Positions 2,932 through 60,795 of a stretch of 64,000 nucleotides of DNA are shown in pieces. Under the pieces are notes generated by a model. The model saw only the letters and a program-made list of their open reading frames with translations. It did no database searches and had not been told where the DNA came from. The number at the start of each line of letters is the position of its first letter. Within the stretch, counting starts at the first letter, position 1. The position numbers were made by a program, and so were the translations under genes. Source of the DNA: [Clostridium] saccharolyticum WM1 (GTDB taxonomy: Bacteria; Bacillota; Clostridia; Lachnospirales; Lachnospiraceae); NCBI RefSeq assembly GCF_000144625.1, contig NC_014376.1, positions 992,001-1,056,000 of the forward strand. The letters run 5' to 3'.

Positions 2932-3846
2932 GTGACGCTTCGCCACATTAAGATATTTCTCGCAGTTTGTGAAAATGGGTATAATGTCACTAAGGCAGCA
3001 GACGCCTTATTTATGACCCAGCCTGCCGTAAGCCTGGCACTGAAAGAACTGGAAGGCTATTATGGTGTTCTGCTGTTTGAGAGAATGTCGCGGCAGCTTT
3101 TTATCACGGAAGCCGGAAAGCAGATGCGGGAATATGCCACGCATATTCTGTCATTGTTCGATCATATGGAAAAGGGATTGCGGGATTGGGATTCCTTGGG
3201 GATTTTGCGGGTCGGAGCCAGCGTTACAATCGGATCCCAGTTCATGCCAAGCTATATCAGTGCTTACAGCATTTTGCATCCAGGTATGGATGTTCGTGTC
3301 TGCATCAGCTCATCGGAGCTGTTAGAGGAAAAATTGCAGTCGAACAAGCTGGACTTTGCTTTTATAGAGGGCGCTGTTCAAACTCCGAATCTGATCAGTG
3401 AGGAATACATGGAGGATTCTTTGACTGCCATTTGTTCGGTCAATGGGCCATTTTCCTATGGAGAAAGGGTATCGGTTGAACAGTTTAAACAGCAGCGTTT
3501 TCTGCTGAGGGAAAGGGGCAGCGGTACCCGGGAGGAATTTGACAGTGCAACCCAGGCCGCAGGATTTTCCGTTGTTCCCGTTTGGGAAGCCACCAGTACC
3601 ACGGCGCTGGTTAATGCGGTCATTCATGGCCTGGGGATTGCAGTTCTGCCCCGAAGAATGATACTGGGTCCATTGAACCATGGATTGATCCTTGCATTTG
3701 ATGTGGATGGAATAAATTTTCAACGGAAGTTTTCGATTTTATATCACAAAAATAAGTTTTTAACCCAATCAGCCCGGGAATTCATTGAATTATGTAAAAA
3801 TTACGAGCTGGATTATCCCATTCCTAAATACAATGGCCTTTACTAG
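2932..3846 (+). CDS. LysR-family transcriptional regulator
   Basis: 304 residues if translated from GTG 2932, which follows GGGAGGTGAT at ideal spacing; an in-frame ATG at 2917 sits inside this ribosome site and is less likely. The N-terminal winged helix (about residues 1-60) reads LRHIKIFLAVCENGYNVTKAADALFMTQPAVSLALKELE, typical of LysR. The remainder is a substrate-binding domain of usual length with a conserved RERGSGTR effector-site motif resembling CysL/YwfK-type regulators. Divergent orientation to the CHR transporter pair suggests it controls that operon; its effector, possibly an oxyanion, is unknown. Confidence 0.93.
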   Translation: MTLRHIKIFLAVCENGYNVTKAADALFMTQPAVSLALKELEGYYGVLLFERMSRQLFITEAGKQMREYATHILSLFDHMEKGLRDWDSLGILRVGASVTIGSQFMPSYISAYSILHPGMDVRVCISSSELLEEKLQSNKLDFAFIEGAVQTPNLISEEYMEDSLTAICSVNGPFSYGERVSVEQFKQQRFLLRERGSGTREEFDSATQAAGFSVVPVWEATSTTALVNAVIHGLGIAVLPRRMILGPLNHGLILAFDVDGINFQRKFSILYHKNKFLTQSAREFIELCKNYELDYPIPKYNGLY

Positions 3847-11667: not shown

Positions 11668-11691
11668 ATACCTTACAGGTATACGTTTTTT
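11668..11691 (+). terminator. Short hairpin plus T6 upstream of the main binding-protein gene
   Basis: Arms ATACCT and AGGTAT surround TAC and are followed by ACG and six T. The stem is only six base pairs, so it may be a weak terminator or attenuator. Its CCTTACAGG core also occurs in the tandem repeats before the permease gene. Confidence 0.4.
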
Positions 11692-11732
11692 CCCAGGAAG
11701 TCTGGGAAGCGAATAAGAGATGGGAGGGTTTT

Positions 11733-13231: not shown

Positions 13232-13439
13232 AACCCCTTACAGGGATACCTTTATGCCCTGAAAAACAGGGCGGGAATGAGGAAACCCCTTACAGGGATA
13301 CCTTTATGCCCTGAAAATCAGGGCGGAAATGAGGAAACCCCTTACAGGGATACCTTTATGCCCTGAAAAACAGGGCGGAAATGAGGAAACCCCTTACAGG
13401 GATACCTTTATGCCCTGAAAAACAGGGCGGAAATGAGGA
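13232..13439 (+). repeat. Tandem array A: four 52-bp units ending in the ribosome site of the permease gene
   Basis: Units begin at 13232, 13284, 13336 and 13388 with near-perfect identity. Each contains CCCTTACAGGG, ATACCTTTATG, the perfect hairpin GCCCTG-AAAAA-CAGGGC (unit 2 has a changed loop) and ends in GAAATGAGGA. The last unit is followed by AACC and the ATG of the permease gene, so the GAGG of the final unit is its ribosome site. CCCTG and CAGGG segments can pair in alternative, mutually exclusive ways. A related four-unit array lies at 49963-50166. There are no spacers, so it is not CRISPR. Function unknown. Confidence 0.95.
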
Positions 13440-13443
13440 AACC

Positions 13444-48402: not shown

Positions 48403-49902
48403 ATGCTGGAAAAACTTGATTTATCAAAAAGGATAGACAAAGAAACCTATAAAAGCACAAGGAAGGAGCAGAGCGAAAGGCTGGGCCTTTTGCAGAGGAA
48501 TTGCAAGGAAGCTAAAATTCCTGTCATGATTGTGTTCGAGGGTATGGGAGCGTCGGGAAAAGGCACCCAGATCAACCGCCTGATTCAGGCATTGGACCCT
48601 AGAGGCTTTGATGTATATGCCAATGATAAATCAACGGAAGAGGAGCAGATGCGCCCGTTTTTATGGCGTTTTTGGACCAAGCTTCCGGCCCAGGGAAGAA
48701 TCGCCCTCTTTGACAGAAGCTGGTACAGGCAGGTGACCATTGAGCGGTTTGAGGGTAAGATCCCGGAAACGGCTCTGCCGGAGGCCTTCCATGATATTCA
48801 AAGCTTTGAACGGCAGCTTACAGATGACGGCATGGTCATTATAAAGCTGTTTCTCTATATTTCAAGGGAAGACCAAAAGAAACGTTTTAACAAGCTTGAA
48901 AGCTCCGGGGAGACAGAATGGCGGGTGACAAAGGAAGACTGGCGCAGGAATAAGGAGTATGGCCGATATCTGGCAGTCTGTGAGGAAATGCTTGAAAAGA
49001 CTGACATGGACTATGCCCCATGGACCATCATTGAGGCTTCTGACAGGGATTTTGCTTCCGCAAAGATCATAACCCAGGTGGCGGACTGCTTAGAGGATGC
49101 TTTAAAGCATCGGCTGCTAAGGGGGGAGAGAAAGGAAAAGGAAGTGCCGGTCCGTTCCGGGAAATACCAAAACGGAGTTCTGTCCGGTGTGGATCTGACA
49201 AAGTCCATATCAAAGGAAGCTTATAAGAAAGAGATGGAGAGGCTTAAGGAAAAGCTGGAATCTCTCCATAGCCAGATATACCGGCTAAGGATTCCCGTAG
49301 TCTTAGGCTTTGAGGGATGGGATGCAGCCGGAAAGGGCGGAGCCATTAAACGCCTTACCAGCCATTTAGACCCAAGAGGATATAAGGTTTACCCCACATC
49401 GGCTCCCAATGATCTGGAGCGAGTCCATCATTACCTGTGGCGTTTCTGGAACCATGTTCCAAAGGCAGGTCATATCGCCATCTTTGACCGGACCTGGTAT
49501 GGCCGGGTCCTGGTGGAGCGGATTGAGGGCTTTTGTACGGAAGCCCAGTGGAAGCAGGCTTATCAGGAAATCAATGAAATGGAAAACCATATGGCTAATG
49601 CCGGAGCCGTTGTGATTAAATTCTGGCTCCATATTGATAAGGCTGAACAGGAAAAACGCTTTAAGGAACGTCAGGTGGATCCAGCCAAGCAGTGGAAAAT
49701 CACAGAAGAGGACTGGAGAAACCGGGAAAAATGGGAACAGTATGAATCTGCGGTCAATGAGATGCTGGTGCGAACCTCCACATCCTATGCTCCCTGGGTG
49801 GTCGTAGAAGGGAACTGCAAGTATTATGCCAGGATTAAGGTTTTAAAAACTGTTGTGGAAGCTCTGGAAGCAAAGATAAAAGAAAAAAAGATTGATCCTT
49901 GA
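48403..49902 (+). CDS. pap: Polyphosphate:AMP phosphotransferase (two-domain PPK2)
   Basis: 499 residues from ATG 48403 behind GGCGAAGGAGG. Two PPK2 domains in tandem, each with a Walker A (EGMGASGKGTQIN near residue 45; EGWDAAGKGGAIKR near residue 305), a Walker B-like FDRSWYRQVTIERFEG / FDRTWYGRVLVERIEG and LDPRGFDVYAN / LDPRGYKVYPTSAPND lid region. This is the PAP architecture that phosphorylates AMP to ADP using polyphosphate in the cytosol. The first domain lacks the second Asp of the GMDASGKG consensus, as in inactive-half variants; the second is canonical. Confidence 0.92.
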   Translation: MLEKLDLSKRIDKETYKSTRKEQSERLGLLQRNCKEAKIPVMIVFEGMGASGKGTQINRLIQALDPRGFDVYANDKSTEEEQMRPFLWRFWTKLPAQGRIALFDRSWYRQVTIERFEGKIPETALPEAFHDIQSFERQLTDDGMVIIKLFLYISREDQKKRFNKLESSGETEWRVTKEDWRRNKEYGRYLAVCEEMLEKTDMDYAPWTIIEASDRDFASAKIITQVADCLEDALKHRLLRGERKEKEVPVRSGKYQNGVLSGVDLTKSISKEAYKKEMERLKEKLESLHSQIYRLRIPVVLGFEGWDAAGKGGAIKRLTSHLDPRGYKVYPTSAPNDLERVHHYLWRFWNHVPKAGHIAIFDRTWYGRVLVERIEGFCTEAQWKQAYQEINEMENHMANAGAVVIKFWLHIDKAEQEKRFKERQVDPAKQWKITEEDWRNREKWEQYESAVNEMLVRTSTSYAPWVVVEGNCKYYARIKVLKTVVEALEAKIKEKKIDP

Positions 49903-49962
49903 CCGCTTGTTTTTTTCCTCTTTTTCGTGTAAAGTAGAAAACGCCGGCAGGGCATACTGATA

Positions 49963-50166
49963 GGACCCTTACAGGGATCCCTTGATGCCCTGGGAAACGG
50001 GCAGAAAAGAGGAAACCCCTTACAGGGATCCCTTGATGCCCTGGGAAACGGGCAGAAAAGAGGAAACCCCTTACAGGGATCCCTTGATGCCCTGGGAAAC
50101 GGGCAGAAAAGAGGAAACCCCTTACAGGGATCCCTTGATGCCCTGGAATACGGGCAGAAAAGAGGA
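49963..50166 (+). repeat. Tandem array B: four 51-bp units ending in the ribosome site of the flavoprotein gene
   Basis: Units begin near 49963 (degenerate start), 50014, 50065 and 50116. Each has CCCTTACAGGG, ATCCCTTGATG, CCCTGGGAAACGGG (last unit CCCTGGAATACGGG) and ends AAAAGAGGA. The array is directly followed by AACGGG and the ATG of the next gene, so the final GAGG is its ribosome site. It is the same repeat family as array A at 13232, with period 51 rather than 52. Because 51 is divisible by three, one frame stays open and would encode a repeated 17-residue peptide. Function unknown. Confidence 0.95.
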
Positions 50167-50172
50167 AACGGG

Positions 50173-51441
50173 ATGAATACGGTTTTGATCGTGGGCGGTG
50201 GCGCTGCAGGGATGCTGGCTGGGATAGCAGCAGCCATGAAGGGCAGTACCGTCCACATTTTTGAAAAGAATGAAAAACTTGGCAAAAAAGTCTATATCAC
50301 CGGCAAGGGGCGCTGCAATGTTACCAATGCCTGTGATACTGAAGAGCTGTTCGGTCATGTAGTAACCAATGCAAAGTTCCTTTACAGCAGCTTTTACGGC
50401 TTTACCAATTTTGATATGATGCACCTTTTGGAAGAGTTGGGCTGCCCTTTAAAAATAGAGAGAGGGAACCGGGTATTTCCGGCTTCCGACAAATCTTCGG
50501 ATGTAATAAAGGCTCTTACAAAAAGACTTCTGGAGCTTGGCGTCTCCATTCATTACCGAACCCAGGTGGAAAGACTTCTGGTGGAGGATGGGATTCTCCG
50601 GGGACTGGTTTTAAAAGATGGCGGGAAAAAGACAAAGGTGTATGGAGATTCTGTGATCGTAGCCTGCGGCGGCTTGTCCTATCAGGCCACCGGTTCCACT
50701 GGAGACGGCTATGAGATGGCAAAGGAAGCCGGCCATAGTGTCACCTCCTTATCTCCGGCCCTGGTTCCATTTTTAGTGGAAGAACCGGTGGTAAAGGAGC
50801 TGCAGGGCCTGTCTCTTCGCAATGTGGAGGCCGTGGTATTAAAAGGGAAAAAGGTGATTTATAAGGAGTTTGGGGAAATGCTGTTCACCCATTACGGAGT
50901 CAGCGGGCCGGTCCTTTTAAGCGCCAGCAGCTATGCGGTTAAAGAGTTAAAGAAAGGGCCTTTGACCCTTTCCATTGATTTAAAGCCGGCTCTTTCCGAG
51001 GAGCAGCTTGACTCCAGGATTCTGCGGGATTTTGAAGAGGCTGTCAACAAGCAGTTTAAAAATTCCCTGGATCATTTATATCCTTCCAAGCTGGTTCCTG
51101 TTATGGTGGATGCAAGCGGAATATCACCGGAGAAAAGGGTCAATGAGATCACCAGGGAGGAGCGTCAGAGGCTGGTCCGGGTGACCAAGGACTTTCGTTT
51201 GACCCTTACGGGACTTCGGGGGTATCATGAGGCCATTATTACCCAGGGAGGCATTTCCGTCAAAGAGGTGAATCCTTCCACCCTGGAATCAAAGCTTCTT
51301 CCCAGCTTGTATTTTGCTGGGGAAGTGCTGGATCTTGACGGGGTGACAGGAGGGTTTAATCTGCAGATCGCCTGGTCTACCGGTTGGGCGGCCGGAAGCG
51401 CTGCCGGAGAGGAGAATTCAAAGGATGAAAAAAGTTTATAA
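50173..51441 (+). CDS. FAD/NAD(P)-binding oxidoreductase, HI0933/YhiN family
   Basis: 422 residues. ATG 50173 follows GAGG at the end of tandem array B. Rossmann start MNTVLIVGGGAAGMLAGIAAA, then KNEKLGKKVYITGKGRCNVTNA, ACGGLSYQATGSTGDGYEMA, and the C-terminal ITQGGISVKEVNPSTLESK and GEVLDLDGVTGGFNLQIAWSTG. These flavoproteins are widespread, of undefined substrate, often placed before cmk-ispH. The stop overlaps the start of cmk by 17 bases, so it heads a coupled operon. Confidence 0.94.
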   Translation: MNTVLIVGGGAAGMLAGIAAAMKGSTVHIFEKNEKLGKKVYITGKGRCNVTNACDTEELFGHVVTNAKFLYSSFYGFTNFDMMHLLEELGCPLKIERGNRVFPASDKSSDVIKALTKRLLELGVSIHYRTQVERLLVEDGILRGLVLKDGGKKTKVYGDSVIVACGGLSYQATGSTGDGYEMAKEAGHSVTSLSPALVPFLVEEPVVKELQGLSLRNVEAVVLKGKKVIYKEFGEMLFTHYGVSGPVLLSASSYAVKELKKGPLTLSIDLKPALSEEQLDSRILRDFEEAVNKQFKNSLDHLYPSKLVPVMVDASGISPEKRVNEITREERQRLVRVTKDFRLTLTGLRGYHEAIITQGGISVKEVNPSTLESKLLPSLYFAGEVLDLDGVTGGFNLQIAWSTGWAAGSAAGEENSKDEKSL

Positions 51442-60673: not shown

Positions 60674-60684
60674 TGCTATGAAAA

Positions 60685-60781
60685 CTGAAAGGGGTGCTGG
60701 AGAAAGTCCGGCTGAGAGTAAGCAGAATTGCTTTAAACCCTCTAACCTGATCTGGATAATGCCAGCGTAGGAAGCCTTCAG
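60685..60781 (+). ncRNA. TPP (thi-box) riboswitch
   Basis: Conserved elements in order: closing arms CTGAA/TTCAG, GGGGTGC, GGCTGAGA, ACCCTCTAACCTGATCTGGATAATGCCAGCG broken by the usual loops, then TAGGAAG. These are the thi-box signatures. It is followed by an intrinsic terminator at 60796, giving a transcription-termination OFF switch when thiamine pyrophosphate is bound. Confidence 0.97.
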
Positions 60782-60795
60782 GCTAAGCCTGTTCA

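Follow-up and report, generated by a model that had tools for sequence, protein, structure and literature searches.

Why should a tandem array of short units end directly before the first gene of one operon, and a similar array before a different gene, within the same window (the whole 64,000-nucleotide stretch of the [Clostridium] saccharolyticum WM1 genome that was analyzed)? Tandem Repeats Finder (TRF) places the array in question at 49966-50169 (period of 51, 4.0 copies, 98% matches); the span of 49963..50166 given in a preliminary description of this DNA captured a real array but began about 3 bases early. Its four units, all on the plus strand and delimited by TRF together with a covariance model, occupy 49966..50016, 50017..50067, 50068..50118, and 50119..50169, and the first of them displays the succession of hairpin 1, CCC spacer, hairpin 2, and GAGGAAAC. 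Unit 4 terminates in GAGGAAAC, which is followed by GGG and then by the ATG at 50173, for which the GAGGAAA of unit 4 probably serves as a Shine-Dalgarno-like sequence. This ATG begins the first gene 3' of the array, encoding an FAD-binding, YhiN-like flavoprotein (50173..51441, plus strand; TIGR00275, to which we presume the name YhiN to apply), and the genes after it are cmk, ispH, and that of 30S protein S1, rpsA (NCBIfam), so that TRF and NCBIfam agree with the earlier report of a four-unit, 51-bp array before a YhiN-cmk-ispH-rpsA operon. The gene upstream of the array is that of polyphosphate:AMP phosphotransferase. By eye and in comparison with orthologs, a probable degenerate fifth unit without hairpin 2 lies at about 49942..49965 (plus strand), and a promoter-like stretch at 49901..49940 (plus strand) is, again by eye, conserved in 25 ortholog sequences, such that the array probably falls within the 5' leader of the operon. 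All 200 shuffles fold less well than the array (z = -3.96), in part owing to the repetition of a single strong hairpin.

The sister array at 13232..13443 (TRF period of 52, 4.1 copies) consists of four 52-bp units on the plus strand and abuts the ATG (13444) of an ABC transporter permease-like gene, for which all ten permease models score below their cut-offs. The covariance model matches both arrays, which are related as proposed, and the window also contains a diverged single copy of the family (11668..11721, plus strand, 36.2 bits), 11 nt 5' of a long open reading frame (ORF). A TPP riboswitch occurs in the window at 60680-60793.

Both arrays belong to a family whose unit of ~52 nt is composed of hairpin 1, a conserved ACC/CCC spacer, hairpin 2, and a purine tail ending in (G/A)AGGAAA. 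Searching the genome at the DNA level returned 19 matches at an E value of ≤1, 10 of them at ≤1.2e-4, and each of these ten clear loci is positioned in sense directly 5' of an ORF; the sequence elements that the preliminary description saw in both arrays recur by eye, with variation, in the ten best loci (the first hairpin of one, L010, is by eye poor). A covariance model seeded with eight units, for which 150 of 1563 first-look candidates were scored, detects 144 units at an E value of ≤5, distributed over the 4.66-Mb genome in 101 clusters (74 single, 15 double, 8 triple, and 4 quadruple). An evenly spaced 400-kb sample, which by chance included the window array, contains nine units at an E value of ≤0.011, eight of which were already among the 144; the sample rate corresponds to ~105 per genome, so the list of 144 is near complete.

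The position of these clusters relative to genes is far from random. Examination of 100 of the 101 (cluster 4603616 was left out) reveals, in sense, an ATG ORF of ≥80 aa that begins -10 to +40 nt after the array in 82, compared with 5/100 in antisense, 644/4000 at random positions (16%), and 479/2136 after GGAAA; 18 clusters have no qualifying start. A same-strand stop codon is present within 100 nt upstream of 75/100 clusters versus 79/213 control gene starts. By eye, among the copies listed, part end in GAGGAAAC, seemingly used as a Shine-Dalgarno sequence, and others end in GGAAAGGAG, with a native-looking motif after it. Three arrays, at G000 701722-701927, 1092833-1092932, and 1100066-1100117, are degenerate and without a clear downstream start. 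There is also a longer variant of ~78 bp with an extra TTACACCCGGTAAAACGGGGYGGGCACTGCC-like hairpin, recognized by eye at G000 3138-3216, 1620831-1620885, 2261022-2261102, and 3719229-3719305 and at the clpX site of G009, G002, G013, and G014, which may be a fuller ancestral form. At one locus (L004, 256-430), the gene preceding the unit has a lysine riboswitch upstream.

The family extends beyond this genome, and we encountered it only in the Lachnospiraceae. All 25 genus genomes searched (Lacrimispora, judging by the named relatives) match at an E value of ≤0.1, with 4 to 142 hits each; in a family sample for which only 19 candidates per genome were scored, 32/299 genomes match at ≤0.001, the present genome included; and in a class-wide sample, 3/291 match at ≤1e-4, all three from the same family. 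Hits per genome in these genus, family, and class-wide searches are lower bounds, since either 141 or 19 candidates were scored. In the order, 16 genomes representing 16 further families yielded no matches, and no unit was found outside the family in the samples searched. Most of the flavoprotein's named relatives at 79-91% identity belong to Lacrimispora.

Proximity to start codons, as claimed from the window alone, is the rule in this genome and also elsewhere: of 20 loci, each from a different other genus, 17 precede an ORF start, rplB and atpD included, as do 6/7 loci of a separate other-genus set (L099 of which was shown at the wrong place). Copies precede gyrA, clpX, rplB, ispF, and cysS in this genome or its congeners, and dnaK is abutted by a unit in another genus. 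In G154, a further genus, a unit precedes rplB, but the covariance model finds none at 29 rplB loci from other genera, and we reject the idea of an rplB site conserved across genera. By eye, the rplW-rplB spacer of many other genera has a different hairpin, ACGC-AACAAAA-GCGTGATAATAAAT before GAAAGGAG, about 30-90 nt before rplB (L413-L441), which is possibly another conserved intercistronic RNA.

That the repeat itself has spread, as the preliminary description argued, is evident from orthologous sites that are filled in some species and empty in others. The flavoprotein site is empty in 17/25 congeners, where AGGAGGA is found in a short leader, 6 nt from the ATG, and filled with one to four units in 8/25. 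These eight are precisely those genomes that have 100 or more hits, and a tree of the congeners other than G023 (24 of 25) unites them in one clade (support of 1.000), so the window array was most simply gained on that branch. When this site is filled, the unit's own tail occupies the place of the native Shine-Dalgarno sequence, and in G002 the left side shows the native CAGGAGG and the right side the AAAAGAGGAAAC of the unit; by eye, G008, G013, G006, and G014 have short units with hairpin 1 only, too. Units are likewise present in some species and absent from others at ispF, cysS, rsmE, and clpP (18, 18, 16, and 17 species shown, respectively), and at filled sites the units lie 3' of a purine-rich stretch upstream of the start codon. 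The left junction at ispF, reading TAGAAGAAA up to the boundary and CACC beyond it, recurs in all seven clade members for which it is shown, and outgroups have TAGAAGAAAGG or TAGGAAAGG at the junction; at clpP, the unit sits in a purine stretch, a few nucleotides 5' of the native motif. Because G008 is empty at cysS within the filled clade and four sister species are empty at rsmE, loss is likely as well. Leaders of ispF diverge less than four-fold sites in 21/21 species pairs, and those of clpP are not consistently below them, which makes selection on individual copies likely but not general.

Compensatory changes, which the preliminary description expected if the hairpins were real, support both of them over 62 loci and 24 genera. 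In an alignment made from sequence only, with one unit per locus (62 units hand-chosen from 98 matches and from the last units of arrays, weaker and odd-length ones being left out), the cells changed on both sides number 34 in hairpin 1 versus 13.3 shuffled and 21 in hairpin 2 versus 5.5, with 0/500 shuffles as high in either case, these shuffles leaving the relatedness among sequences in place; pairings slid from the hairpin registers score lower. Across 24 genera (23 others plus the window; L392, L394, L403, and L099 were left out), there are 33 compensated cells versus 12.2 in shuffles of the same kind (0/500 as high), and an unpaired CC spacer is conserved. The eight-unit seed shows no excess of changed pairs (375/500 shuffles as high), and RNAalifold applied to the 62 units predicts only hairpin 2. 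One of the six pairs of hairpin 1 is mostly C-A (39/59 cells). The cells of hairpin 2 include 24 G-U and 5 A-C, as expected for the sense strand, and the mismatches of hairpin 1 comprise 46 A-C and 16 G-U, so it is hairpin 2, and not hairpin 1, that carries the argument for the sense strand.

Compensation is also seen within a single orthologous site, that of clpX, where the arms read GCCC/GGGC, GCUC/GAGC, GUUC/GAAC, or UGUUUA/UAAGUA according to species (four compensated stem states, 18 species). Here, 82/90 cells are paired versus 77.7 permuted (6/2000 as high), in a count that searches for the arm anew in each sequence and thus leans toward structure, a procedure used because sequence-only alignments misregistered some rows. 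This count leaves out G014, G009, and G002 (long variant), G001 (deletion), G015 (N run), and G012 (degenerate), and for G011 an ortholog was not at hand. On the evidence of these sequences, compensation in hairpin 2 at one site suggests that the structure is kept after insertion.

How units arrive at their sites can be judged in part from their flanks. Over 69 clusters, the 5' flank has the column majority RGAA^A, and its match to the unit's own 3' end is slightly above that of permutations (7.03 of 12 versus 6.55; 0/2000 as high), which could reflect target duplication or old tandem remnants. The RGAA^A flank and the junctions at the flavoprotein site fit insertion 3' of a fixed target by an element that brings its own right end, as in IS200/IS605, and a short target duplication fits too. 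G002 carries a further unit (24.4 bits; placed by eye) within the upstream coding sequence, at its 3' end, suggesting that what is targeted is a sequence and not the start codon. Identity between units has a median of 0.93 within arrays and of 0.61 between loci, with a best value of 0.91; arrays thus seem to grow and homogenize in place, and with no near-identical units at different loci there is no sign of recent movement in this genome.

A source of mobility was sought among the 19 matches of this genome to PF01797 (Y1 transposase), several of which are two pieces of one element. The Y1 copies are IS200-like, and the 11 with ends shown have ends that are alike and differ from those of the unit, so we rejected them as its source; nor do the PF01797 loci of this genome include an autonomous partner with the unit's ends (six loose motif matches occur elsewhere in them). 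One diverged copy that was shown whole, L190 (G000 about 603552-603908), is IS200-like, its transposase being interrupted by one in-frame stop; L197, a partial copy, was included only in the alignment. The possibility of a phage vector was approached with one strict pattern, a weak test, which occurs in 0 viral contigs.

Several other accounts of the array can be weighed against these data. An ATG inside hairpin 2, present in 44/57 loci, could mark leader peptides or alternative starts, but the three frames relative to the start of the gene are about equally represented (15, 15, 14), 13/57 loci are without it, and unit lengths vary regardless of multiples of three, so we reject this reading as barely credible. 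Neutral satellite DNA, generated by slippage only and without insertion preference or structural constraint, would explain why units are nearly identical within arrays, why their number varies between species, and why no recent dispersal is seen in this genome. The preliminary description had conceded that copies with neither a preference for gene starts nor compensatory changes would be such a satellite; the genome-wide copies, collected, aligned, and covariance-modeled, exhibit both, and, as far as the controls reach, this contradicts the satellite reading and makes it very improbable. We also consider quite unlikely an RNA thermometer or switch that would hide the Shine-Dalgarno sequence through pairing of CCU(U/C)U with (A)AGAGG. 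Seven of ten single units fold with the Shine-Dalgarno sequence paired, and the site is less open than in shuffled leaders, if only slightly (0.59 versus 0.63; p = 0.04, 57 loci). The helix that includes it is 79.0% paired in its register versus 54-68% in slid ones, but shuffling gives 79.1% (62 loci), and over 24 genera the values are 74.7 paired versus 73.8 shuffled, a lack of excess covariation that is a weak and not a decisive result because the core pairs are nearly invariant. Many of the copies listed have by eye a further Shine-Dalgarno-like GGAG 3' of the unit, and the suggestion that the array exerts control by hiding this sequence was not borne out.

A translational regulon, in which a protein or RNA acting in trans would bind the double hairpin, a portable RNA leader, and so co-regulate 100 or more genes through translation or mRNA decay, is a doubtful reading, yet one with more in its favor: the start-adjacent, sense placement of clusters, the covariation of the hairpins and the compensation within the clpX site, the unpaired CC spacer shared by 24 genera, and the genes that copies precede, namely gyrA, clpX, rplB, ispF, and cysS in this genome or its congeners and, elsewhere among the genera, dnaK, atpD, and rplB. 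Against it, sister species differ in the presence of a unit at the same gene, the genes have by eye no functional theme, and hits per genome range from 4 to 142 within one genus. An extended version, in which the element targets Shine-Dalgarno sequences, re-creates them with its own end, and so enters essential operons nearly invisibly, after which its hairpins would place 100 or more genes under a single factor that acts in trans on translation or decay, we likewise think unlikely.

The explanation that we favor, and regard as moderately probable, is that the unit is an old dispersed element of a REP/MITE-like kind, which would insert at sites resembling a Shine-Dalgarno sequence, increase in number as tandem copies, and be retained as a hairpin leader. 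This explanation builds on the presence and absence of units at orthologous sites, their position, and their two hairpins, all of which are observed. The mobilization process would recognize the purine stretch, and the unit, in entering a purine-rich Shine-Dalgarno-like site, would bring its own copy of the motif, rendering entry nearly silent. Copies would persist because the tail of the unit keeps the downstream gene translatable, and arrays would then grow by slippage. More speculatively, the hairpins might act mildly in cis in the mRNA, by influencing its stability or processing or as a ribosome standby between cistrons, and such a role would account for the compensation within one old site. 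Modulation of essential genes by the array, as put forward in the preliminary description, is likewise conjectural. If this old dispersed element is what we take it to be, a widespread structured element that is absent from Rfam stands at the starts of core genes (the rpsA operon, clpP, clpX, ispF, cysS, and gyrA, and in other genera dnaK, atpD, and rplB). A natural experiment on leader structure and translation is then offered by sister species that differ in whether a site is filled or empty, and what moves the unit becomes a testable question.

The unit does not correspond to a standard feature class, as had been supposed, in that no Rfam family reaches its gathering score in the window arrays or in 20 of the 27 other-genus loci; at an E value of ≤5 in ten loci of this genome, a unit is overlapped only at L005, by a human lncRNA model whose match (E = 3.3) falls far short of its cut-off. 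We found no description of such a repeat in the literature searched, which was confined to open-licence papers, so that absence from print is not thereby shown. IS200/IS605 elements and the MITEs derived from them have subterminal hairpins and insert 3' of a short fixed target that resembles their right end. The unit is like these MITEs in its hairpins and perhaps in inserting 3' of a short target resembling its end, but no gene-bearing element with the unit's ends was found, and the IS200-like copies of this genome end differently. The BOX elements of pneumococcus are intergenic repeats with a tandem-variable middle part, set apart by description through another sequence and modular layout and by having no Shine-Dalgarno end.

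REP/REPIN sequences are described as small hairpin-forming intergenic repeats, often with >100 copies per genome, that form persistent populations (PMC2817692, PMC8049555), and the unit is similar in size, copy number, and persistence. REP/REPIN sequences are, however, inverted pairs associated with RAYT (TnpA-REP) transposases, whereas the unit forms direct tandem repeats in one orientation, is start-adjacent with its own Shine-Dalgarno motif, and has no GTAG or CGTC foot of the REP type apparent in its consensus; no RAYT-like gene was noticed among the Y1 matches of this genome. A parallel in location is with the TAACTGA direct repeats of Beggiatoaceae, heptamers from other phyla that likewise lie just before start codons, in genomes in which canonical ribosome binding sites are reportedly rare (PMC4679880). 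Compared with that account of the heptamers (PMC4679880), the present family is distinguished by a unit of ~52 nt, two covarying hairpins, and a Shine-Dalgarno motif of its own.
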